From a virus, in IMG/VR virus record IMGVR_UViG_3300032898_000122, positions 1-22,312 of that record: a DNA stretch of 22,312 nucleotides, one strand, 5' to 3'. Each line of letters starts with the position of its first letter. Position 1 is the first letter of the stretch. Both the position numbers and the translations under genes were made by a program. A model generated the notes under the pieces. The model saw only the letters and a program-made list of their open reading frames with translations. It made no database searches and was not told the DNA's origin. Positions 1,190 through 21,898 of the stretch are shown here, piece after piece.

Positions 1190-3193
1190 TTAGGTGAGCG
1201 CAGCCAGGGCCGCTGGGAGGTCTGCAGCTGGTACGAGCACATCGCGTGCCTGTGACCCGGCGGCCGGGCCGACGACGCCCGCGGCCTCAAGTGCGTCCAT
1301 CAGCGCGGACGCCTGGGCGAAGCCGAGCCGGAGTTTGCGCTGGAGCATCGACACGGACCCGAACTGCGTGCTGACTACGAGCTCCGCAGCCTGGGCAAGC
1401 AACTCGGGAACGGCCTCGTGCGGCTCAGGCACCGGCACGGCTGAGGTGGCGGTCGCGGTGGCGGTCAGGGTGACAGCACCTTGCGCCTTGCACTGGCGGA
1501 CCACGTCCCGGATCTCGCGTTCGGACACGAACGCGCCCTGGATCCGCTCGGGGCGCAGCGCGCCTGCAGGCTTGAACAGGGCATCACCCTGGCCGATCAG
1601 TTTCTCCGCGCCCGGCTGGTCGAGAATCACGCGCGAGTCGGTCAGGCTCGCGGTCGCGAACGCGAGCCGTGACGGGATGTTGGCTTTGATCAGCCCGGTC
1701 ACCACATCCACCGAGGGCCGCTGGGTCGCGACGACTAGGTGAATGCCCGCAGCGCGGGCCAGCTGACAGATCCGCACGACCGCGTCTTCGACGCCGAGCG
1801 TGTCGTCGTCGGGGTCGCGGCGTCGCTGCGCTGCCCCGTCGACGATCATCAGGTCAGCTAGCTCGTCGATGATCACGAGCAGGTACGGGTACGGCTCGGC
1901 GGGTTCGCCGTTGCGTCCGCGTAGCCGGCCCGCAGCGACGTTCAGGTTGAAGTCGTCGATCTTGTTGCAGCCGAATGCGGCCATGTCCTCATACCGGCGT
2001 GTCATCTCTGCGATGACCCAGTGCAGCGCGGCGGCTGCCTTTCTCGGGTCGGTAATGATCGGCACGAGCAGGTGCGGCAGCCCCGCGTAGGCGGCGAGCT
2101 CGACCTGCTTCGGGTCGATGAGGATCATGCGTACCCGGTCGGGTGTGGCCCTGGTGAGCACGGATACGATCAGCGAGTTCATGAACACGGACTTGCCTGA
2201 GCCTGTCGCGCCGCCGATCAGCAGGTGCGGCATCTTGGCCAGGCATGCGACGACCGGTCGGCCTTCGACGTCTTTGCCCATGCCTGCGGTGAGCGGGTGC
2301 GGGTCGTTACGCGCGGCGGGTGACCGCAGCACGTCACCGAGGGAGACGATCTCCCGGTCAGCGTTCGGGATCTCGACACCGATCGCCGACATGCCAGGCA
2401 CCGGGGCGAGGATCCGCACGGACGCGCTGCCGACCGCGTAGGCGATGTTCTTAGACAGCCCGGTAACCCGCTCGACCTTCGTGCCGGGACCGATCTGCAC
2501 CTGATAGCGGGTGACAGCCGGCCCGCGAGTCAGGCCGGATACGGCGGCGTCGATGTTGAACGCGTCGAACACGTCGTTGATCGCCGAGCGGACAGTGTCG
2601 TTGGCCGGCGTGCGTGGCCTAGCCGCGGGTCCGGTCTTGAGCAGGGCGGGTCCCGGTGCGGTGTAGGTCTCGTCTTCGTCGAGAGCCGGACCGGCTACGG
2701 GGGTTTCGTAGGCGTCGTCGTCTGTGACTTCAAGATCGTCGGCGACTACGACGCCCCGGACGTGCTGCGGAGCCCAGACCGGGTCGTCGGTGAGTTCGCC
2801 GCGGACGACCTGCCTGCCCGAGTGAATGACCCTGTTGCGGTGCATATGCGGCAGCGACAGGCCGAGACAACCGACGATCAGAAGAATCTGCATGATCCCG
2901 GCCCAGCCCAGCGGGGTCCAGGTAGCGGCGATGAGAACCCACAGGGACCAGAGACCCCAGCCGATGAGTGCTTGCGTGTTGCCGTGCTTGCGGCCCTTAG
3001 TTTTGCGGGCAGTCCAGTACCCGGCGACGCCGACCGCCACTAGCGCGAGCATGTCAGCGCCACCGCCGGGGAACCCGTAACGGGCGATGAACGCGACCAG
3101 ATCAGCGGCAGCGATCCACCCGTAGGGCGCGAGGATGGCGCGGTGCGCGCTGGTGACGGCGCGGACCTGTTCGTGCAGCGGCGGGAGGCTCAT
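1190..3193 (-). CDS. FtsK/SpoIIIE-type DNA translocase (TraB-like pump), 667 aa
   Basis: Membrane-anchored hexameric ATPase that pumps double-stranded DNA, probably the conjugation pore of the element. The N terminus carries about three membrane helices (roughly residues 24-60, 76-92 and 96-114). An acidic/Pro linker (130-200) follows, then the FtsK alpha/beta region (about 200-560) with Walker [10 protein letters not shown] at 327-335, Walker B LLVIIDE at 438-444, and the downstream [11 protein letters not shown] segment at 487. Residues about 598-655 form an FtsK gamma-type winged helix ([20 protein letters not shown]), the part that reads DNA polarity sequences. At 667 aa it is shorter than most chromosomal FtsK proteins, because the linker is compact. 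The ATG lies directly after the stop of the upstream membrane-protein gene. A chromosomal FtsK is unlikely given the neighbours (WhiB, transglycosylase, GntR, phage replication genes). No relaxase is seen, consistent with TraB-style dsDNA transfer. Confidence 0.95.
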
Positions 3194-3814
3194 TTACCGG
3201 CGAGCCCTTCCGCGCGGGGCGACGGCGGTGCGTGGACCGCCGGAGGGTAGTGCGCGCCTGCCCGGCAGCATTCTGGTCGCCGCAGGCTCGGGCTTCCGCT
3301 TCTTGTCCATGCGGATGCCGAGAACGATGAGCGCGACGACTACGGAGACGCCCGCCGCGAGGATCAGGTACCGGTGATCCTTCGGCACAGCTTTCGCGGC
3401 GGCACCGGAATGGATCTTCCGCACGGCTGTTGACAGCGCAGTGCCGGTGCCGCTGGTCGACTTGCCGAGACTGGACAGCATGTCGCTGACGTCGGCGATC
3501 GCCAGGACGAGTGTCACGCCGAGCGTCGCGGCGATGACCGGCGTGCGAATCCGGTGGTGCTTGTGCTTGGCCACCGCTTCAAACATGAAGGCAATAGCCG
3601 AAGCCACCGTGAGTCCGGTCAGCCACACAAGACCTGCGGGAGTGCCGACAATGCCGGCGAGAGCGTTCCGCCACGGCACGATGGCGACGGTGAGAATGAA
3701 CGCGCCCGCGCCGATCAGCCACGCGGTGATGCGGTGCAGCTTCTTGTACGACCACAGCAGGAAGCCGAGCCCGGCGAAGACTGAGCCGAGCGCGAGGACT
3801 TTGGTGTAGATCAC
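3194..3814 (-). CDS. Multi-pass membrane protein, 206 aa (possible Spd-like transfer protein)
   Basis: I place the start at the GTG at 3814, which has AAGGAA 5 bases upstream and sits just after the stop of the preceding gene; the longer open frame reaching 3973 runs into that gene and has no ribosome site. From this start there are five hydrophobic segments (about residues 4-21, 29-47, 60-80, 91-109 and 148-167) and a strongly basic, Arg/Pro-rich C-terminal tail of about 35 residues likely to face the cytoplasm. The stop abuts the ftsK-like ATG, so expression is coupled to the pump. No named family is recognised. Membrane topology and location resemble the Spd proteins of Streptomyces conjugative plasmids; this assignment is inference. 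Confidence 0.8.
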   Translation of the reverse strand: MIYTKVLALGSVFAGLGFLLWSYKKLHRITAWLIGAGAFILTVAIVPWRNALAGIVGTPAGLVWLTGLTVASAIAFMFEAVAKHKHHRIRTPVIAATLGVTLVLAIADVSDMLSSLGKSTSGTGTALSTAVRKIHSGAAAKAVPKDHRYLILAAGVSVVVALIVLGIRMDKKRKPEPAATRMLPGRRALPSGGPRTAVAPRGRARR

Positions 3815-3825
3815 GGTGGTTCCTT

Positions 3826-4299
3826 TCAGCCCTTCCAGGCCAGCAGCGCGACGATCAAGACGGTGAAGACGAGCAGCCAGAACCGCAGCGGCTTGTGGCA
3901 GATAGCGGAGATCGAGTTCCCGAACGCGACTCCCGGCCGGCCGATCAGCAGGTGGTGGATCACGCCGAGCCACTCAAAGACACCGCCGTTGTGACCGGGC
4001 GGCACCCATGCGCGGGACGTGGCGTAGTCGCATTCCTCGCGAAGCGACGGGGGTTTGCCTTCGATCAGAGCGTTGACCGGGCCGCCTTCGCGGCGGGCCA
4101 GGTCACGCAGTCGCGCGGCGGCCATGCGGAACGCGTGGGCGAACGCGGCGGCGGACTGCTCCTTCAGGCTCAACTGGCCTCCGCTGAGACGCACTAGGGG
4201 ACGGGGTTCGGTTGCCGGGGTGGCTGGCTCGGCCGGGGTTGCCGGGGATTCGTCGTCGGGCCGGTGTGCGACGCGGAGGGGCAGGGGCAGCTGCGTCAC
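3826..4299 (-). CDS. Membrane-anchored protein, 157 aa
   Basis: The N-terminal part (about 1-36) is Pro/Thr/Ala-rich and probably disordered. A helical region follows (44-72), then a conserved-looking block, RAWVPPGHNGGVFEWLGVIHHLLIGRPGVAFGN at about 97-128, and a single C-terminal membrane helix (about 138-155). A protein with a C-terminal anchor and a cytoplasmic body would fit a membrane adaptor of the transfer machinery. I cannot name the family. The start ATG overlaps the upstream stop (ATGA), and the gene ends 11 bases before the start of the five-helix membrane protein. It belongs to the transfer operon. Confidence 0.8.
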   Translation of the reverse strand: MTQLPLPLRVAHRPDDESPATPAEPATPATEPRPLVRLSGGQLSLKEQSAAAFAHAFRMAAARLRDLARREGGPVNALIEGKPPSLREECDYATSRAWVPPGHNGGVFEWLGVIHHLLIGRPGVAFGNSISAICHKPLRFWLLVFTVLIVALLAWKG

Positions 4300-4634
4300 T
4301 GGGGGATTCCTTCTTCCTCGGTGGCCCGCTGGAAGCTGGCCTCAAAGACGCCGAGCAGATGGCGCGGAGCTGGGACGCGCGGGCATCCGGGCGGCCGCGA
4401 CGGTTTGTGGGCGTGCAACTGGGCGGCGATGGCGAGGATCGACCCGGCAAGCTCCGCGTCAGTGATTGCAGCGTCGCCGGGGCGGCGGCGACGCAGCTTG
4501 GCGGCTTCGGACTGGAGGGTGCGCAGGGCGAGGTTGAGTGCCTGTTGCCCGGCGCCGGTCTCAAGGGCGTCGATTACGGCAGCCTTGGCGGCCGTGGCGC
4601 GCCCGCTCGCGCGTTCGGTCAGGCTTGCAGGCAT
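4296..4634 (-). CDS. Hypothetical helical protein, 112 aa
   Basis: A small Ala/Arg-rich protein, predicted mostly helical, with no membrane segment or signal peptide. The central part (about residues 20-75) could form a helical bundle; the C-terminal third is Pro-rich and then acidic. The family is not recognised. The ATG at 4634 has GGAG about 9 bases upstream, and the stop overlaps the start of the following gene by 4 bases, so translation is coupled. It is a cytoplasmic member of the transfer operon with unknown function. Confidence 0.7.
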   Translation of the reverse strand: MPASLTERASGRATAAKAAVIDALETGAGQQALNLALRTLQSEAAKLRRRRPGDAAITDAELAGSILAIAAQLHAHKPSRPPGCPRVPAPRHLLGVFEASFQRATEEEGIPQ

Positions 4635-4673
4635 CGGGCTAGGGCTCCGTTTCTGTTAGCGGCTCGGCTGGTC

Positions 4674-4853
4674 TTAGCTGCTGCGCTTGCGGGTGAGCGC
4701 GACGCCCGCGAGGATGAGGACGGCGATCAGCGCGATCAGGAAGACGGCCATTGACGGGCTCTTGTGCGCGAGGGTGCTCCACTGCGCGGCGATGCTCAGC
4801 GGGTGGGCCGGGTGCTTGATAGCACCCAGGGTCGTGATGGTTCCGTTCTGCAT
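4674..4853 (-). CDS. Small single-pass membrane protein, 59 aa
   Basis: From the ATG at 4853 the protein has a short polar N-terminal part, a strong hydrophobic helix at about residues 34-53 (MAVFLIALIAVLILAGVALT) and a basic C-terminal tail (RKRSS), so the C terminus is probably cytoplasmic. An open frame reaches upstream to 5198, but that extension overlaps the transglycosylase gene and has the Arg/Ser/Pro composition of an out-of-frame read, so I reject it. A ribosome site (AAGGAAA) precedes the chosen ATG at a slightly long distance. Tiny membrane proteins of this sort accompany the pump in many conjugative elements of Streptomyces; its exact role is unknown. Confidence 0.7.
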   Translation of the reverse strand: MQNGTITTLGAIKHPAHPLSIAAQWSTLAHKSPSMAVFLIALIAVLILAGVALTRKRSS

Positions 4854-4887
4854 GGCAGGTGGTGTTTCCTTCCGGGGTTGCGGGCAG

Positions 4888-5382
4888 TCAGTAGCCCTCG
4901 TTGTTGTTCGCCCGCTTGAAAGCGAGCGCGGCGCACGGCGAGCCGTAACGTCCGTCGATGTACCGGAGACCCCACAAGATCTGGGCCCGCCGGTTGGATG
5001 AGCCGCCGAGATCAGCGGGCCGCGCGGAGAGGGGCATCTTGGTCGCCGGCCGCGCTTGCGGGATTCCGTAGGCGAAGACCGTCGCGTCGGCAGCGTCCAG
5101 GTGGGATCGCCGGGTGTCGGCGTACTGCGACCAGCCCGACTCGCCTTCCCACAGCGTGTCGAGACACGACCACTGAGTGCCTCGCCAGTCGTAGTCACGC
5201 GCAGCCAGACGGCGGCCGAGCGCGACGTTAGAACCGGCTGAAATCACCGTCGCGGCGGCAGTGTCAGCCGCGCCGCCGCCTGCCGCCGGGTGAGCGTGAG
5301 CGTGAATGTCGTGGACCGCGGCGAGTGCGAGCCCGACACCGATCGCGGCACCTAGCTTGCGAGTGCCCTTGTTCTTGCTCAT
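4888..5382 (-). CDS. Exported lytic-transglycosylase-like protein, 164 aa
   Basis: Probable peptidoglycan-cleaving enzyme acting outside the membrane. The N terminus has a basic start (MSKNKGTRK), a hydrophobic run (about 11-24) and an Ala-rich candidate cleavage region near residue 35, so it is likely secreted. The domain after about residue 66 contains W-CLDTLWEGESGW, with the likely catalytic Glu at 81 in the ESGW motif. Next come FAYGIPQA (about 103-110) and ILWGLRYIDGRYGSPC (135-150). This order is typical of the compact transglycosylase SLT-like domain of actinobacterial secreted proteins. Such an enzyme would thin the cell wall locally for DNA transfer. The start overlaps the stop of the WhiB gene by 4 bases, which ties it to the operon promoter. 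Confidence 0.88.
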   Translation of the reverse strand: MSKNKGTRKLGAAIGVGLALAAVHDIHAHAHPAAGGGAADTAAATVISAGSNVALGRRLAARDYDWRGTQWSCLDTLWEGESGWSQYADTRRSHLDAADATVFAYGIPQARPATKMPLSARPADLGGSSNRRAQILWGLRYIDGRYGSPCAALAFKRANNNEGY

Positions 5383-5703: not shown

Positions 5704-5731
5704 AGGCTAAGCTACTCTTGACAATTGTCAA
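5704..5731 (-). promoter_or_regulatory. Probable promoter of the whiB-ftsK operon
   Basis: On the minus strand a TTGACA box (5731-5726) is followed after 16 bases by TAGCCT (5709-5704), a good fit to the actinobacterial housekeeping promoter (TTGACn and TAGnnT). Transcription would begin near 5697, giving a leader of about 28 bases before the GTG of the whiB gene. The -35 box lies inside the 28-bp palindrome at 5711-5738, so a bound repressor would block RNA polymerase. Confidence 0.6.
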
Positions 5732-5738
5732 GAGTAGC
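5711..5738. promoter_or_regulatory. Perfect 28-bp palindrome, likely GntR operator
   Basis: The 14-base arm GCTACTCTTGACAA (5711-5724) is followed immediately by its exact reverse complement (5725-5738), with no spacer and no mismatch. It sits between the divergent whiB operon and the GntR gene, 15 bases before the GntR ATG, and includes TTGACA in both orientations. Long perfect palindromes in this position are typical binding sites of dimeric GntR repressors, which usually control their own gene and the divergent one. Binding is inferred; the symmetry is directly visible. Confidence 0.8.
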
Positions 5739-5753
5739 ACCGGGAGGCGATGC

Positions 5754-6299
5754 ATGGCTGCAGCGGCGGTTCTGGACGCTGACCTCTACGATTGGGCCGG
5801 TACGGCTGACGAGGAGGGAGCGGCGCTGGTGGAAGCAGCACGGCCGGGCTACCGGCAGGTAGTCGAAGAGCTGCGAAGCCAGATTCTCTCCGGCGCGTTC
5901 CCTCCCGGCTCTACGCTGCCCGCACAGGCAGCACTCGCGAGAGACCTACGCGTCGATGTCACAGTGATCAACCGAGCTGTGACCGCGATGGCGGCAGAAG
6001 GTCTTGTGCGAGTCGAGCACGGCAAGGCGACCGTCGTCTTGCTACGTCAGACATGGCGTATTGAGTTCGGGCTGCAAGCTGCAGAAAAGGTCGCATCGCT
6101 CACCACTGCCTTGCGGCGGGAAGCTAAGGCATTGCCCGCGGTCAGAGGCACAGAAGCAATCCGGGTCGCTGACGGCGCAACCGTGCGAATGACTGTCGAG
6201 TCCGCCGACATCTCGGGCGCAGTGATGGTCGCTCTTGTCCTTGCGCGCCAGGTGATGAACTCAGCGGACATCGTCAGCGTCTCGGCCACGGGTGCTTAG
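5754..6299 (+). CDS. GntR-family transcription regulator, 181 aa (KorSA-like)
   Basis: DNA-binding repressor. The GntR winged helix lies at about residues 33-97, with GYRQVVEELRSQILSGAFPPGSTLPAQ, the recognition-helix region LARDLRVDVTVINRAVTAMAAEGLV and the wing VEHGKATVV. The C-terminal part (about 105-181) is short and is not a full UTRA or FadR ligand domain; it may serve for dimer formation. I choose the ATG at 5754 because GGGAGG lies 6 bases upstream; an in-frame TTG at 5718 lies inside the operator and is rejected. In pSAM2 and other Streptomyces conjugative elements, GntR repressors such as KorSA keep transfer genes silent. The divergent position facing a transfer operon and the palindrome in between support the same job here. 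Confidence 0.9.
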   Translation: MAAAAVLDADLYDWAGTADEEGAALVEAARPGYRQVVEELRSQILSGAFPPGSTLPAQAALARDLRVDVTVINRAVTAMAAEGLVRVEHGKATVVLLRQTWRIEFGLQAAEKVASLTTALRREAKALPAVRGTEAIRVADGATVRMTVESADISGAVMVALVLARQVMNSADIVSVSATGA

Positions 6300-10335: not shown

Positions 10336-10673
10336 CCGTCATGACCGCCGTCAGCACGGCCGATCAGATGCTTGTCCTGCTCGCCGATGTCGCGCTCAAA
10401 GCACATCAGGCCGGCCAGCAGGTCGAGCCCGGCCACCTGGCCTGGCAGGTCGTCAGGCAGCACGCCGACGCGTCGCACACCGACGAGACGCTGCTGCTCG
10501 CCTGGACCGACTTCGCTGATCAGGTCGTTGACCGTGCCGCGCTCGACAGTGGCACGCGGCACTGGCGCGACCTGTTCGATCCGGAGGACTGCGCGGGCTT
10601 CGACCACGCGATCGACATGCTTTCCGGCCGGATCGATGACGCATACCGGGTCATCCGCGACGGTGCCCGGTGA
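10332..10673 (+). CDS. Hypothetical acidic helical protein, 113 aa
   Basis: It starts at GTG 10332 with a good AGGAG ribosome site 6 bases upstream (10321-10325); an ATG three codons later is an alternative. The protein is acidic, Asp- and His-rich, all-helical by composition, with no membrane segment. No motif is recognised. It lies immediately before the YqaJ exonuclease with a 4-base overlap, so an accessory role in recombination or a small inhibitor of a host function are both possible; nothing in the sequence decides. Confidence 0.65.
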   Translation: MTVMTAVSTADQMLVLLADVALKAHQAGQQVEPGHLAWQVVRQHADASHTDETLLLAWTDFADQVVDRAALDSGTRHWRDLFDPEDCAGFDHAIDMLSGRIDDAYRVIRDGAR

Positions 10674-11725
10674 CCAGCGCGATCGGCCGGAAGGTCACGC
10701 CGACAGGCGTGCTCGTCGCCCCGTACAACGTGCCCGCAGACGAGTGGCACGCGCTGCGACAGGCCGGCATCGGCGGCTCTGACGTCGCGGCGCTGCTCGG
10801 CATGGACCGGTACAAGTCACCGTTCGGGCTCTGGCTTGAGAAGCGCGGCGAGATGCCCGACCGGCCGGTACCCGAAAAGCTCGCCCGTGCCGCCTACTGG
10901 GGTCACAAGCACGAGCGCGACATGTCGGAGCGGTTCTGCGAACTGACCGGCATGCGGACACGGCGCATCGGCCTGATCCGCCATGAGACCGACGAATGGC
11001 GGCGCGCGAATCTTGACTACCGGGTGCTCGGCTGCCCGGACGGTCCGTGCGGTCTTGAACTCAAGAACCGGTCGTACTACAAGGCTCGCGAGTGGGGCGA
11101 GACCGGCGACCCCGACGGCGTGCCGGACAAGGAAGCACTGCAGACCGTCCACTACCTCGCGGTCACCGGCTTTAGCCACTTCCACGTCGGCGTGCTGCTA
11201 GAAGGCAACGACGATCGCTGGTACCGCATCGACCGCGACGAGCAACTGATCGACGACGTCGTCGCGATGGAACGCTCATTCATGGAGCGTGTCTGGTCAG
11301 GCGAGGCACCGCCGCTCGACGGGCACGCCGCGCTGACGGAACTGATGGCCGTCCTGTACGCCGGCGACGAAGACGCCCGGAAAGAACTCGACCCCGTCAA
11401 AGTCGAGTCGCTGCTCAGCCGACGCGCCATGCTCAAGGCGCAGATCGCCCAGGCCGCAGAAGAAGTCGACGGCTGCGAGAACCAGCTCAAGGAGTTGCTC
11501 GGCGAAGCCGAGGTCGCAGTCGGCCCGGACGGAGAACGGCTCTACACGCGCAAGCAGAACGGCCAGTTCAGCGAGAAGCGGTTCCGCGAGACCTACCCGG
11601 AACTCGTCGAGAAGTACGAGACGACCGTTCCGGCGCTCGACGTCGACGCGATCAAGGCCGACCACCCAGACAAGCACCGCGCCTGCCGGGCGCGGGTTCT
11701 TCGCATCCCCAAGGAAAGAGGTTAA
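10670..11725 (+). CDS. YqaJ-family viral recombinase / exonuclease, 351 aa
   Basis: A lambda-exonuclease-type 5'-3' dsDNA exonuclease that makes 3' single strands for the annealase. Motifs in order: GIGGSDVAALLG (33-44), the helix with WGHKHERDMSERF containing Glu 82, the PD-(D/E)xK core with Asp 116 in NLDYRVLG and Glu 130-Leu-Lys 132 in GLELKNRSYYK, and QTVHYLAVTG with Gln 158. The C-terminal third (about 240-350) adds a coiled-coil-like helix and a tail often seen in phage forms. The gene starts with GTG overlapping the previous stop and its stop lies directly against the recT-like start. Pairing with RecT is the classic two-gene phage recombination system. Confidence 0.93.
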   Translation: MTSAIGRKVTPTGVLVAPYNVPADEWHALRQAGIGGSDVAALLGMDRYKSPFGLWLEKRGEMPDRPVPEKLARAAYWGHKHERDMSERFCELTGMRTRRIGLIRHETDEWRRANLDYRVLGCPDGPCGLELKNRSYYKAREWGETGDPDGVPDKEALQTVHYLAVTGFSHFHVGVLLEGNDDRWYRIDRDEQLIDDVVAMERSFMERVWSGEAPPLDGHAALTELMAVLYAGDEDARKELDPVKVESLLSRRAMLKAQIAQAAEEVDGCENQLKELLGEAEVAVGPDGERLYTRKQNGQFSEKRFRETYPELVEKYETTVPALDVDAIKADHPDKHRACRARVLRIPKERG

Positions 11726-12793
11726 GTGAGTAACAACCGTGGCGGTAATCTCCGCGACCGTGTCGCCGCTCAGCGGAACGGCACGGACGGCGGGGGCGGC
11801 GAGATCGCGCAACGCGACTCGCTAGAAGCGCAAATCAAGCGCATGGCACCCGAGTTTGAACTCGCGATGCCGCACGGCCGCGAGGCTACGCAGTTGGTTC
11901 GTGACGCGATCACCTGTCTGCGGAAGATCGAGAAGCTCGACGCCTGCGACGCGAACAGCCTGCTCGGCGCGCTGATGACGTGCGCGCAGCTCGGGCTGCG
12001 GCCCGCTGTCCTGGGCCATGCGTGGCCGCTGCCTTACTGGGACGGCAAGGCCGGGCGATACCGGGCTCAGCTGGTCATCGGATATCTCGGCTACGTCGAA
12101 CTGGCGTACCGCTCCGGCAAGGTCACGGCGATTACGTCGCGGATCGTCCGGCAGAGCGAGCGGTTCGACATCACCTACCACGAGGACCGCGACGAACTGA
12201 TCCACAAGCCGTCCGTCGACGGGCTGCCCGGCGAGATCCGCGCCTTCTACTCGACTGCGCGGCTGGTGAACAACGGGTACACGGTGACCGAGCCGTGGTC
12301 GGTCGCGCGCATGGAAGCGCACCGCGACCAGCACGCGCCTCGGAACCGCAGCGGCGGTCTCGTCGGGCCGTGGAAGGACAACTTCCCCGCGATGGGCCAG
12401 AAGACGATGGTCTTGCAGAACTGCCGTCTGCTGCCGAAGTCCGAAGAACTAGCGATCGCGATCGACGCGGACGAGGGCCTGCGGGTCAACATCGACCCCC
12501 GGACCAACGCCGCTGAGGTCACCGAGCACCCAGACGCGATCCCCGGCCAGGTCGAGCACTCCGACGAGCCGCCGACGCAGCAGCCGGAACGCGAGTCGAC
12601 CACACTGTCGGAGCCGCCTTCGTCGCAGCGTCGTCCGCGGCAGCAGAGCGCGCCGGCCGCCGAGCAGCCCGGTAGCCAGCAGGACGGCGATCAGTCGCAA
12701 CTGCCGGTCGAAGACCCGCCCGGACTGAACGAGCCCGCTCGCGACGAGAACGGCGGCGTCGACCCAGCCGACCCGAAGATCGCCTGGGGCTGA
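11726..12793 (+). CDS. recT: RecT-family single-strand annealing protein, 355 aa
   Basis: It anneals complementary single strands produced by the neighbouring YqaJ exonuclease. The RecT core spans about residues 30-240 with typical segments: SLLGALMTCAQLGLRP (78-93), GHAWPLPYWD, YRAQLVIGYLGYVELAYRSGKV (112-133) and NFPAMGQKTMVLQNCRLLP. The last 100 residues or so are disordered, rich in Pro, Gln and Glu, and acidic, longer than in Bacillus-type RecT proteins. The start is GTG, immediately after the previous TAA, with AAGGAAAGAGG as ribosome site. No SSB gene is seen in the window, so the protein would work with host SSB; its acidic tail could be a contact point, which is a guess. Confidence 0.95.
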   Translation: MSNNRGGNLRDRVAAQRNGTDGGGGEIAQRDSLEAQIKRMAPEFELAMPHGREATQLVRDAITCLRKIEKLDACDANSLLGALMTCAQLGLRPAVLGHAWPLPYWDGKAGRYRAQLVIGYLGYVELAYRSGKVTAITSRIVRQSERFDITYHEDRDELIHKPSVDGLPGEIRAFYSTARLVNNGYTVTEPWSVARMEAHRDQHAPRNRSGGLVGPWKDNFPAMGQKTMVLQNCRLLPKSEELAIAIDADEGLRVNIDPRTNAAEVTEHPDAIPGQVEHSDEPPTQQPERESTTLSEPPSSQRRPRQQSAPAAEQPGSQQDGDQSQLPVEDPPGLNEPARDENGGVDPADPKIAWG

Positions 12794-17498: not shown

Positions 17499-17564
17499 AT
17501 GCGTGCCGCAGTTGCCCAGGTACATCAAGGACATCAGGAATGGCAGGGGCACCACCAGGAATGA
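17499..17564 (+). CDS. Possible leader peptide before the initiator gene, 21 aa
   Basis: An ATG exactly at the predicted transcription start opens a 21-codon frame rich in His and Gln (MRAAVAQVHQGHQEWQGHHQ and a final Glu). It ends with a TGA that overlaps the ATG at 17561 of the initiator frame (ATGA). It may be a leaderless coupling or attenuation ORF controlling initiator synthesis, or chance. It is supported only by its position and the overlap. Confidence 0.35.
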   Translation: MRAAVAQVHQGHQEWQGHHQE

Positions 17565-18562
17565 GTCTCGAAGCGATGCTGTGGGCTCTCAAGCAGGCCC
17601 CGGACGTGCCATCGCAGTGCGTCGGTGTCCTGATGGGTCTCGCCGAGGCAGCGGACCGGCGCGGCTGCGGCGCGCATCCGAGCGCGCTCACACTCGCCGC
17701 TTACGCTCGCAAGAGCGAACGGCAGGTCCGTGCTGATCTGCAGCTGCTAGCCGATGCGAAGTTGATCCGGCCGGGCGACCAGTCCGCTGCCGCATACATC
17801 CCGGTCAATCGTCGCCCGGTGGTCTATGACCTGGCTCTCGAACTTGTCTCTGACCTGCAGTCCACTGCACCCCGGGGGAAGGTACGGGGCAGCCATCCGC
17901 GAGGGGTGCAGCCGACTGCTGACCGGCAGTCCACTGCACCCCAGCAGTCCACTGCACCCCAAGGTGCCGGTGACATGCAAGAACACGATGACATGCAGTC
18001 CACTGCACCCCAAGGCGCGGAAGTTCTGGGGTGCAGTCCAGCGTCGCCAGGGGTGCAGTCCACTGCAGACAAACCCAAGAACATAAACCCAAAGTCAAAA
18101 CCTTCTTCTCGTCAGAGCGATCTCAACGCCGGCCGCGAGGACGCCGAGCGACTGTGCGTCCATCTCGCTGACCGCGTCCAAGCGAACGACCCTGACGGCA
18201 AGCGACCCCCGATCGGCAAGCAATGGCTCGACGCGGCCCGGCTGATGCTCGATACCGACCATCGCACCGAGGACAAGGTTCACCGCGCGATCGACTGGTG
18301 TCAGGACAGCGAGTTCTGGCGGCGCAACATCCGGTCGATGCCAAAACTCCGCGACCAGTACGCGCGGCTCCAGATGGAAGCCGACGCAGAGCGCAAGAAA
18401 CAACTCGCGCTCGCTAACGGCCGCGCGGCCGGCAACGCGCCCCGGCCGTCTGCCACGGACGCACGGGTCGCCGCGATACAGGCGCTCAAGAACCAGCCGC
18501 CGTCGTCGCCAGATGCACCTGAGACAACCCACCCGCCCGTCATCCAAGGGAGCATCCTGTGA
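17540..18562 (+). CDS. Replication initiator (lambda-O-like) containing the origin, 340 aa
   Basis: This protein probably opens the origin and recruits the helicase. The N-terminal winged-helix domain (about residues 8-80) contains LMGLAEAADRRGCGAHPSALTLAAYARKSERQVRADLQLLADAKLIR, typical of phage and plasmid initiators. Residues 107-177 are a low-complexity linker with five QSTA(P/D) units, encoded by iterons. The C-terminal part (198-280) with FWRRNIRSMPKLRDQYARLQ resembles the helicase-contacting end of phage O-type and DnaD-related initiators. The start at 17540 has AAGGA 8 bases upstream; ATG 17561 (333 aa, overlapping a leader ORF) is a real alternative. The stop overlaps the loader gene, which is followed by dnaB, the O-P-B-like order. 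An in-gene iteron origin is known for lambda; finding it here is direct sequence evidence. Confidence 0.85.
   Translation: MAGAPPGMSLEAMLWALKQAPDVPSQCVGVLMGLAEAADRRGCGAHPSALTLAAYARKSERQVRADLQLLADAKLIRPGDQSAAAYIPVNRRPVVYDLALELVSDLQSTAPRGKVRGSHPRGVQPTADRQSTAPQQSTAPQGAGDMQEHDDMQSTAPQGAEVLGCSPASPGVQSTADKPKNINPKSKPSSRQSDLNAGREDAERLCVHLADRVQANDPDGKRPPIGKQWLDAARLMLDTDHRTEDKVHRAIDWCQDSEFWRRNIRSMPKLRDQYARLQMEADAERKKQLALANGRAAGNAPRPSATDARVAAIQALKNQPPSSPDAPETTHPPVIQGSIL
17856..18067. repeat. Iteron cluster inside the initiator gene (probable replication origin)
   Basis: Seven copies of an 18-base motif, TGCAGTCCACTGCACCCC or close variants. Four are in plus orientation at 17856-17873, 17925-17942, 17943-17960 and 17994-18011; two of these are exactly adjacent. 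Three are inverted, beginning GGGGTGCAG, at 17903-17919 (degenerate), 18028-18040 (half) and 18050-18067. Each carries the small inverted repeat GCAGT-CC-ACTGC, so the half-site is ACTGCACCCC. The repeats encode QSTAP units of the initiator. Confidence 0.85.
18071..18110. other. AT-rich patch next to the iterons, candidate DNA unwinding element
   Basis: 25 of 40 bases are A or T, with A runs on the plus strand, in DNA that is otherwise strongly GC-rich. It begins 3 bases after the last iteron, the arrangement of the lambda origin (iterons then AT-rich melting region). It lies within the initiator coding sequence. Confidence 0.6.
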
Positions 18563-18948
18563 CCCGCGACGAAGTCATCGACCTGCTGGCGATCATCAGC
18601 GGCGTCAACGGCCGCACTGTCGGCGAGACCGATGTCGCCGTGTGGCTCGAACTCGTCGGCGACATGTCCTTCGCTGACGCGAGTGCCGCAGTTAAGGCGC
18701 ACTACATGGAATCCGATCGGTGGATCATGCCGTCGCACATCCGCGACCGCATCAAGGTCATGCGGCACGAACGTCTCGCCCGAACCCCGCTGCCTGACGT
18801 GCCTGACGAAATCGTTGACGACGCGGCCGCCTACCTAGCGTGGGAACGCGCCGCGCGCCGGCTGATCGCCGACGGCTTGACCGACCCGAAGGTCATCACG
18901 GCCAGGGCTAGCCGCACGCTCCGCGCAATCGAGGCCGGTGACCGGTGA
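18559..18948 (+). CDS. Probable replicative helicase loader (G39P-like), 129 aa
   Basis: A small, mainly helical protein between the initiator and the DnaB genes. The sequence MTRDEVIDLLAIISGVNGRTVGETDVAVWLELVGDMSFADASAAVKAHYMESDRWIMPSHIRDRIK resembles the N-terminal pattern of phage helicase loaders of the SPP1 G39P type: a helix, a VxxW segment, an F-A-AxxAVxxHY segment, and a W-(M/P)P-xxIR ending. It lacks an ATPase motif, so it is not a DnaC-type loader. GTG start and stop overlap both neighbours by 4 bases. Gene position is as strong evidence as the sequence; a search with a loader profile would settle it. Confidence 0.7.
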   Translation: MTRDEVIDLLAIISGVNGRTVGETDVAVWLELVGDMSFADASAAVKAHYMESDRWIMPSHIRDRIKVMRHERLARTPLPDVPDEIVDDAAAYLAWERAARRLIADGLTDPKVITARASRTLRAIEAGDR

Positions 18949-20306
18949 CCGGCGAAGATTACGACCGCACCCCGCCGCATGATCTCGGCGCGGAGCAATG
19001 CGCGCTCGGCGGCATGATGCTGTCGAAAGACGCGATCACCGACGTTCTCGACGTGATCAAGTCGCCGAGAGATTTCTACCGGCCGGCGCATCAGCTCGTG
19101 TTCGGCGCGGTACTCGACCTGTTCAGCCGCGGTGACCCGGCCGACGCTGTCGCTGTCGGCGCGGAACTGGCCCGCAAGGGCGAGCTCGTCCAGATGGGCG
19201 GCGCGCCGTACTTGCACACCCTGATTGCTGCGGTGCCGACCGCCGCGAATGCGGGGTATTACGCGCGGATCGTCGCCGAGCGGGCTGCGTTTCGGCGGCT
19301 GATCGAGACCGGCACCCGGATCGTGCAGACCGGCTATGCGGGCGATGTTGAACCTGGGCAGGCGTTCGACGCGGCACGGAACTGGCTCGACACGGCGGCT
19401 GGGACTGGTGACGACAGCACCGGTCATGATGTCGGTCCGTTGATGTGGGAAGTGCTCGGTTCGATCGAGGCTCCGGACAGCGAGACTCCGGGCTTGCCGA
19501 CCAGCCTGAGTGATCTCGACGCGGTTCTGAACCGGTTGCGCCGCAAGCAGCTGATCGTCATCGCGGCGCGCCCAGGCGGCGGCAAATCTGCCCTGGCCCT
19601 CAACATCTCTGCGGAGAACGCGATCCGGGGCGGCACCGGGGTTCACTTCTGGTCACTTGAGATGGCCCGCCAAGAACTAACGCTGCGGCTACTCGCAGCC
19701 GAAGCGCGGGTGCCGTTGATGCACCTGCTGCGCCGCGAACTGTCCGACCGGGAATGGGGACGGCTCGGCGGCGCCCAGGTCGACATAGGCGAAGCACCGC
19801 TCAAGATCTTCGACCCGTCGCACGCGTCGCTGACTGACATCCGGTCCGAGCTGCGTGCCGCCGAGCGGCGCAAGGAACTCCCCGGCCTGGTCGTCGTCGA
19901 CTATCTGCAGTTGATGACCGGGACGAGACGTGCGGAGAACCGGCAGCAGGAAGTGTCCGAGATCGCCCGCGGGCTGAAGCACATCGCTGGCGACTTCGAC
20001 TTGCCGGTGATCGCGCTCGCGCAGCTAGGTCGCGGGTCGGAACACCGGCTCGACAAACGGCCGATCGTCGCTGACCTCCGCGAGTCCGGTGAGATCGAGA
20101 ACAGCGCCGACGTTGTGATCCTGCTGCACCGCGAAGACATGTACGACAAGGAAACGCCGCGCGCAGGCGAGGCAGACATCATCGTCGGCAAGCAGCGCAA
20201 CGGCCCGCAGGCGAACGTTGTCACGGCGTGGCAGGGCGATCTGGTGCGGTTCGTCGATATCGCCCCCGAGTCGTGGCGGCCGTCGAACGCGGCTGGTGCA
20301 GCGTGA
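18945..20306 (+). CDS. dnaB: Replicative DNA helicase DnaB, 453 aa
   Basis: A hexameric 5'-3' helicase that drives the replication fork. The N-terminal DnaB domain (about 12-115) begins PPHDLGAEQCALGGMMLSKDA. The RecA-type ATPase domain (about 180-440) has Walker A ARPGGGKSALA (208-218), the SLEM motif (237-240), Walker B LVVVDYLQLM (315-324), ALAQLGRGSEHR (357-368) and DLRESGEIENSADVVILLHR (377-396), with KQRNGP (416-421) carrying the arginine finger region. The length is that of ordinary bacterial DnaB and no intein is seen. GTG start, overlapping the loader stop; overlaps the methylase start too. With the upstream initiator and loader it forms a self-sufficient replication start module. 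Confidence 0.97.
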   Translation: MTGEDYDRTPPHDLGAEQCALGGMMLSKDAITDVLDVIKSPRDFYRPAHQLVFGAVLDLFSRGDPADAVAVGAELARKGELVQMGGAPYLHTLIAAVPTAANAGYYARIVAERAAFRRLIETGTRIVQTGYAGDVEPGQAFDAARNWLDTAAGTGDDSTGHDVGPLMWEVLGSIEAPDSETPGLPTSLSDLDAVLNRLRRKQLIVIAARPGGGKSALALNISAENAIRGGTGVHFWSLEMARQELTLRLLAAEARVPLMHLLRRELSDREWGRLGGAQVDIGEAPLKIFDPSHASLTDIRSELRAAERRKELPGLVVVDYLQLMTGTRRAENRQQEVSEIARGLKHIAGDFDLPVIALAQLGRGSEHRLDKRPIVADLRESGEIENSADVVILLHREDMYDKETPRAGEADIIVGKQRNGPQANVVTAWQGDLVRFVDIAPESWRPSNAAGAA

Positions 20307-21898
20307 CGGCGATCGTGGTCCGCGGAGACGCCCGGAGCCTGCCGCTGCCCGACGAGTCGGTCGACTTGATCGTCACGAGCCCGCCGTACTACAACATTCG
20401 GTCGTACGAAGATGCTGGCGAGCACTACGCCGGGCAGATCGGCGACGAGAAGACGCCCGGCGAGTACATCGACAATCTGCTCGACTGCACTGCCGAGTGG
20501 ATGCGTGTCCTGAAGCCGACCGGGTCGATCTTCGTCAACATCGGCGACGTCTACTCAGTCCGAGCGGACGGCTCAGCTGCGCGGACCTGGCGTGCCGACC
20601 GCGCCAACGCGATCCCCGGCCGCCGGAACACGACGAGCTTCGCCCGGCGTAAGAGTCTCCTAGGGCTGCCGCAGCGTTACATGCTCGCGTGCATTGACGA
20701 GCTCGACCTGATCTGCCGCGCCGAGATCATCTGGGCTAAGCCGGACGCGACACCAGAGTCAGTGAAAGACCGGGTCCGTCGCGCTCATGAGCAGGTGTTC
20801 CACTTCACGAAGGAGCCGGTCTACTACTCGGCGATCGATGACATCCGGATCGAGAACAGCGGCTACATCCGCAATAACGCTACCCGGAAGACTGCGCCCG
20901 GCCAGAAGCCGCGCACGCTTGCAGACCGGGTCAACCCGCTCGGCGCTCTGCCCGGTTCAGTGTGGGAAATCGCAGCGCAGCCGCTCAAGTTGCCGGCCGA
21001 ACTAGGCGTTGAGCATCACGCAGCCTTTCCGCTGAACCTGGCAAGGAAGGTTGTTCTCGGATGGTCGCCGACTGGCGTCTGCGTTGCATGCGGCGAAGGT
21101 CGCCGCCCGGTCCCGGTCGCTGTAGCTCTCGACATGAGCCGCCCGCAGGCGCGCCGCGCACACCAGTTGGCCGAGCAGGCCGGACTGACCGAGAATCACC
21201 TAGCCGCGTTGCTATCGGTTGGCATCAGCGACACCGGCCGCGGTGCCGCAACCCAGTCAGGCACCGGGAAGAACACGCCGGAGGTCTACGCCCTAGCAGA
21301 CCAGGCAAGAACGGTTCTCGGCGGATACGCCCGCGAGTACCTGCTCCGGCGCCCGACTCGCTTCGACTATGCATGCGACTGCACCCCGTACACCAACCAT
21401 CCTGAGCGGCGCGGCACCGATCTGCACTCGCAGACGTCCCGCTCGGTGCGTGGAATGAACGACGGTCGCGCCGGCGAGCGCTATCGGCAGTCCGCGCTGG
21501 CCTGGACTTGTTCGGCGATACCGCAGTCGTCCGCCTGTCGAGCCAGGGCGACCGGCACCGGTCCCGGCCGCCATTCGCCGACGCGCTCGGCGCGATCACC
21601 ACGACCCGCGATGAGGCAATCGCGACTGCGCCGTTCCTCACGTTGCTGCGGTCCGGACGGGACCGGAACATCGGCATCGACGAGCCGCTTGCGACCATCG
21701 TCGCTAACGGGTCGAATCACGGCCTGGTGCTGCCGCTCGGCGGCTTCAACCGCAAGGCCGATCCCACTACGACCGGCGAGCCGTTCCGGACCCGTGTCAC
21801 CCGTGACACTGAGGCGCTGTTCACCAACGAGCCGTTCATCACGATGCTCCGCAACAACCAGACCGTGCGCGGCATCAGGACGCCGATGGCGACGGTGA
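20303..21898 (+). CDS. N4/N6-type DNA methyltransferase, C terminus disrupted by frame change
   Basis: A beta-class DNA amino-methyltransferase. From the GTG at 20303 (overlapping the dnaB stop) the catalytic motif IV SPPYYN is at residues 26-31. GLPQRYMLACID, IIWAKPDATPES, FHFTKEPVYY and GSVWEIAAQPLK follow, and AAFPLNLARKVVLGWSP at about 240-255. A zinc-like CVAC (260-263) and CDC (358-360) surround an inserted helical region. Beta-class enzymes should then have the DPFxGxGTT motif for S-adenosylmethionine; none is present. The reading frame becomes meaningless (Arg/Ser/Pro-rich) after about position 21499, where the next base frame takes over sensible coding. The stop at 21898 is therefore artificial. 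Either the gene is a remnant, or the sequence has a missing segment or base. Confidence 0.75.
   Translation: MTAIVVRGDARSLPLPDESVDLIVTSPPYYNIRSYEDAGEHYAGQIGDEKTPGEYIDNLLDCTAEWMRVLKPTGSIFVNIGDVYSVRADGSAARTWRADRANAIPGRRNTTSFARRKSLLGLPQRYMLACIDELDLICRAEIIWAKPDATPESVKDRVRRAHEQVFHFTKEPVYYSAIDDIRIENSGYIRNNATRKTAPGQKPRTLADRVNPLGALPGSVWEIAAQPLKLPAELGVEHHAAFPLNLARKVVLGWSPTGVCVACGEGRRPVPVAVALDMSRPQARRAHQLAEQAGLTENHLAALLSVGISDTGRGAATQSGTGKNTPEVYALADQARTVLGGYAREYLLRRPTRFDYACDCTPYTNHPERRGTDLHSQTSRSVRGMNDGRAGERYRQSALAWTCSAIPQSSACRARATGTGPGRHSPTRSARSPRPAMRQSRLRRSSRCCGPDGTGTSASTSRLRPSSLTGRITAWCCRSAASTARPIPLRPASRSGPVSPVTLRRCSPTSRSSRCSATTRPCAASGRRWRR

Follow-up and report, generated by a model that had tools for sequence, protein, structure and literature searches.

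Replication origins located inside initiator genes are already known from lambda, SPP1, pSK41 and the repABC plasmids. The lambda initiator gene contains four 18-bp iterons and, linked to them, an AT-rich sequence of 38 bp (PMC3349717); these iterons are bound by dimers of the initiator (PMC3985674). Similarly, gp38, the origin-binding protein of the Bacillus phage SPP1, binds direct repeats that form part of oriL and are located within gene 38 itself, beside an AT-rich unwinding element; its partners are the loader gp39 and gp40, the DnaB-type helicase of the phage (PMC6316719). The rep gene of the staphylococcal plasmid pSK41 (RepA_N) carries an origin with Rep boxes in its central part, the N-terminal domain of Rep binds this origin, and the central linker encoded by the origin is dispensable as protein (PMC5703833). 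In the repABC plasmids the origin lies inside the initiator gene repC near an AT-rich stretch, without iterons (PMC3155836).

The DNA analyzed here (the window) is an IMG/VR record of 22312 bp that is classed as viral and may be a fragment. Positions 17852-18110 of the window very likely serve a phage or phage-like element as its replication origin and lie within the gene for its own initiator (Table 1). The computed support for this comes from the repeats themselves, which are conserved as DNA in every reading frame and sit between two folded domains, from the AT-rich neighbour and from the homology of the initiator and the helicase. A lambda-like layout with the origin in the initiator gene had been proposed in the first-pass annotation for 17856-18110, a range whose best limits are now about 17852-18110, and it agrees with the lambda description (PMC3349717): iterons and an adjacent AT-rich stretch lie between two domains of a protein with an O-like PHROG match, and a DnaB gene follows downstream. 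Iterons next to an AT-rich stretch within the initiator gene are common to lambda and the window. The window differs in the sequence and number of its iterons (seven sites in both orientations), its protein is without a Pfam lambda-O match, and the element encodes its own DnaB helicase. The layout of SPP1 gene 38 and oriL, likened here by description, also resembles that of the window, whose repeat family consists of GGGGTGCA dyads. The likeness to pSK41 rep is one of layout with no sequence relation shown, and with repC the window has in common a candidate origin in the initiator gene near an AT-rich stretch, but the window has iterons whereas the repC origin has none.

Table 1. Coordinates of the candidate origin, the initiator gene and its downstream neighbours in the window
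Feature	Position	Strand	Basis
O-like replication initiator gene, 333 aa from ATG 17561	17561..18562	+	PHROG profiles
N-terminal winged-helix DNA-binding domain, residues 1-101	17561..17863	+	AlphaFold2 pLDDT 83-97
DNA coding for predicted disordered linker, residues 102-185	17864..18115	+	AlphaFold2 block pLDDT about 44-63
Iteron 1, right arm ACTGCACCCC perfect	17852..17873	+	Repeat scan, shuffles
Iteron 2, inverted, GGGGTGCAGC arm	17903..17924	-	Repeat scan, shuffles
Iteron 3	17921..17942	+	Repeat scan, shuffles
Iteron 4, core directly abuts iteron 3 core	17939..17960	+	Repeat scan, shuffles
Iteron 5	17990..18011	+	Repeat scan, shuffles
Iteron 6, inverted half-site, reading frame unlike other copies (codes LGCS)	18028..18049	-	Repeat scan, frame analysis
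Iteron 7, inverted, adjoins AT-rich patch; 22 bp from iteron 6	18050..18071	-	Repeat scan; spacing kept in L004
AT-rich patch, putative unwinding element, AAACCCAA twice	18070..18116		AT content ranking
Helical C-terminal domain, residues 190-290	18128..18430	+	AlphaFold2; profile matches
Small downstream gene	18559..18948	+	phrog_8924 (annotated unknown function)
DnaB-type replicative helicase gene	18945..20306	+	PF03796 1.7e-79

The initiator matched phrog_391 ('replication initiation O-like') with an E-value of 1.1e-21 over residues 8-287 and phrog_1032 (replication initiation protein) with 4.8e-16. An alternative ATG at 17540 would give an initiator of 340 aa, and the relatives begin at an MSxxAMxW motif. 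No Pfam family was matched by the window protein at E<=0.01, and the 25 families that 22 relatives matched most often did not include the Pfam phage replication protein O; by its profile matches the protein is O-like according to PHROG and stands outside the Pfam lambda-O family. Every one of the 22 family members gave a match to HTH_36 (PF13730) at E<=1, the best with 5.8e-14; the window protein scored 13.5 bits (E 0.06), below the curated cut-off of 25 bits. The RepC N-terminal profile was matched by 13 of the 22 members (best 1.6e-5), with no match of the window domain at E<=1. Searches of the PDB by sequence and by fold retrieved generic winged-helix matches only, none of them significant, including 4pql ('N-Terminal domain of DNA binding protein', E 0.16) and 4pt7 ('Structure of initiator', E 0.59). 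The region of the C-terminal domain was matched by phrog_22834 as well as by DnaD-like loader and replisome organizer profiles. In the AlphaFold2 model, built on a 35-row alignment, two folded blocks flank a linker predicted to be disordered, and the iterons together with the AT-rich patch encode almost exactly this low-confidence stretch, which bears out the earlier placement of the array within one ORF between a DNA-binding and a C-terminal domain.

Scanning of the whole window revealed seven copies of CTGCACCCC inside the initiator gene (17865+, 17903-, 17934+, 17952+, 18003+, 18028- and 18050-; span 17865-18058), four on the plus and three on the minus strand. The 18-mer with up to 3 mismatches matched eight times in the window, seven of these matches within 17856-18071 and the one at 18054+ overlapping that at 18050-, while dinucleotide shuffles of the whole window yielded 0.03 matches on average and never more than one. 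The seven 18-base units in two orientations described earlier stand far above the shuffles, and two of them are exactly adjacent as stated (17925-17942 and 17943-17960), but the sixth (18028-) is only a half-site, and a 22-bp interrupted palindrome, GGGGTGCA-N6-TGCACCCC, describes the unit better. Window copies of this dyad have one good arm apiece and degenerate second arms. Of the earlier view that the half-site is palindromic about a CC centre, the interrupted palindrome could be retained, but CC is an asymmetric spacer and not a symmetric centre. DnaA boxes were rejected as an identity for the iterons: the centre GTCCAC resembles part of TTGTCCACA, of which the window contains one near-match only, at 1003, below chance. 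A search against RNA families gave no match.

A viral scan with the DNA-binding domain detected relatives encoded on 375 stretches; 80 of these were retained, and 47 non-redundant initiators were analyzed. At least three GGGGTGCA cores were present in 32 of these 47, and the initiator ORFs contained 173 cores in total compared with 6 in 324 kb of flanking DNA, a 234-fold enrichment. All but one of the 173 lay within the linker, in roughly the first 90 codons past the DNA-binding domain. The most frequent core spacing was 22 bp, and all three frames were occupied, coding for GVQ, xGC or RGA. Among named phages, those of Arthrobacter and Pseudomonas encode relatives of these initiators, with the repeat in the corresponding position. 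L004, the nearest relative at 55% identity, has seven sites, several of them complete 22-bp dyads (e.g. GGGGTGCAACCCACTGCACCCC), and mostly encodes QPTAP where the window has QSTAP; between the two, the spacers have diverged while the site DNA is conserved, as are the final three spacings (51, 38 and 22 bp). On the 182-kb Kineococcus plasmid pKRAD01, 8 of 9 copies of ACGGGGTGCA are found at the same place of the homologous gene. The GGGGTGCA array of this plasmid (L122) is located at 152425-152581 within an unnamed helix-turn-helix gene; it is probably the plasmid's replication origin, and no other replication initiator is annotated on pKRAD01 in a gene table that is incomplete. The full palindrome pattern gave two matches in viral contigs, both in ORFs unlike initiators.

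The forward copies lie in one reading frame, so repetition at the level of the peptide had to be ruled out. Codon-level duplication expanding a QSTAP peptide linker, with the DNA motif as its by-product, would account for the five forward window copies sharing one frame (spacings 69, 18, 51 and 60) and for a linker predicted to be disordered. It is contradicted by the inverted copies and the copy in another frame, by the 22-bp phasing in the relatives, which gives three different peptides from one DNA motif, and by the destruction of the motif in synonymous shuffles, and we regard it as extremely improbable. None of 5000 synonymous-codon shuffles that kept the peptide and the codon usage reached seven copies. 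All six threonine codons of the linker are ACT, a codon that makes up 11% of the threonine codons elsewhere (p = 2e-6). Most repeats follow one another at a phase of 22 bp, so that the motif appears in all three frames with varying peptides, and the relatives keep it while the encoded peptide changes (GVQ, xGC, RGA, xAP). The first-pass annotation had named the same QSTAP peptide over a destroyed DNA motif as a pattern in relatives that would speak against its reading; the opposite was found, the motif being kept and the peptide changed. Its claim that the repeats force QSTAP units upon the protein describes the copy in this window but not the relatives, which encode other peptides from the same motif. 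The constraint acts on the DNA and not on the peptide, and as part of the origin explanation the protein sequence of the linker is in all likelihood mostly a by-product of the DNA sites.

A different role for DNA sites of this kind would be that of operators, through which the initiator regulates itself or another dimeric regulator acts, considering that 22-bp dyads resemble repressor operators and that the window encodes repressor-like and GntR regulators. Operators are nevertheless hard to reconcile with sites that lie mid-gene, often in 5-8 phased copies, that are followed by an AT-rich patch in nearly all relatives and that are tied to the same DNA-binding domain across phages and plasmids with different neighbours, and we consider this role improbable.

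The AT-rich patch that had been reported 3 bases past the last unit (unit end 18067) was confirmed. Its best 40-mer is 62.5% AT and ties for the window maximum as one of the three most AT-rich 40-mers, compared with an ORF mean of 35% AT. Among the 32 motif-bearing relatives, the stretch 3' of the last core ranked in the top 2% of the AT-rich 40-mers of its own ORF in 30. Iterons can also serve as control loci. The array could accordingly be a locus at which initiator binding mediates incompatibility or handcuffing, the true origin lying at another place of the element, and GC skew gives an origin at this place no support: in five plasmid relatives the cumulative skew does not point to the initiator gene and is uninformative. 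Since there is no second array in the window, where the sole other exact half-site ACTGCACCCC is at 21378, and since an AT-rich element adjoins the last iteron as in lambda (PMC3349717), such a locus is a very improbable explanation.

If the array is the origin, replication would start there with the initiator bound to the repeats. The N-terminal winged-helix domain would bind the GGGGTGCA-N6-TGCACCCC palindromes at seven full or half sites, with the initiator probably acting as a dimer, and the assembled complex would open the adjoining AT-rich patch. The C-terminal domain, which probably contacts a loader or the helicase, would then help with the delivery of the DnaB helicase that the element itself encodes (gene at 18945). 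The small protein encoded between the two genes perhaps assists in this delivery, and its position suggests that it is possibly the helicase loader.

At the corresponding place, the half-sites of some relatives were of other types (GGGGTGAC, GGGGTGTC, GGGGGGAC, CGACCGGAC and TACGACA). An out-of-sample search of 395 genomes identified 15 with the DNA-binding domain; the linkers of seven of these beat synonymous shuffles with exact 8-mers, and most of the remaining linkers also contained palindromic repeats as judged by eye. The C-terminal domain of the window type was also found joined to N-terminal domains of a quite different kind, accompanied by other repeats. Streptomyces phages with another N-terminal domain had 7-bp GAACAGG tandems in their linkers, and the initiator linkers of L006, L007, L009, L016, L017 and L023, where a C-terminal domain related to that of the window follows a different N-terminal one, exhibited 7-bp (GAACAGG) or 8-bp tandems coding for NREQGTG-like peptides. 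L010:6261-6480 combined yet another N-terminal domain with a linker containing several near-perfect AAACCCCGCAGGATCCTGCGGGGTTT-type palindromes.

In many relatives (L013-L020, L032, L043, L165, L169, L174 and others), the iterons are followed by direct repeats of a second type, approximately GAACCGTCCTT, which are spaced 11 bp apart and enriched about 21-fold at this place. This second repeat is read in three frames (TVL, EPS and NRP), co-occurs with different iteron types and is hardly recognisable in the window. The initiator gene of the window may belong to a cross-phylum family of self-contained origin cassettes, each made up of a winged-helix domain, its own palindromic linker iterons and the 11-bp GAACCGTCCTT that persists when the iterons change, in which initiator specificity and origin would be exchanged as one piece and the 11-mer would be read by another conserved factor; we hold this proposal tentatively, at slightly less than even confidence.

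Elsewhere in the window, a leftward cluster on the minus strand (1190-5382) encodes an FtsK-type translocase (alpha, motor and gamma domains) and a transglycosylase-like protein, with a GntR regulator gene nearby on the plus strand (5718-6299). The conjugation module assumed in the first-pass annotation could not be established, because the FtsK-type translocase and the GntR regulator, the only components found in this record classed as viral, do not separate a phage from a conjugative element; the cluster could be a conjugation module or phage genes. Neighbouring genes for a YqaJ/RecE-like exonuclease and a RecT annealing protein, a phage-type recombination pair, are located at 10670-12793.

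In the open-access literature no description of GGGGTGCA iterons was found, the one match in a phage paper being a table of att sites, and an earlier description is possible; nor were embedded origins in such phages found there. Added to the known systems here are an iteron common to phages of Actinomycetota and Pseudomonas and a plasmid, the differing iteron types of the relatives, and the adjacent 11-bp repeat. The occurrence of one DNA motif in three reading frames makes this an unusually clear case of a coding sequence shaped by DNA function. In natural variants of the family a change in the DNA-binding domain goes together with a change in the iterons, which makes it a ready-made set for deciphering a protein-DNA recognition code and for building compatible replicons in actinobacteria.
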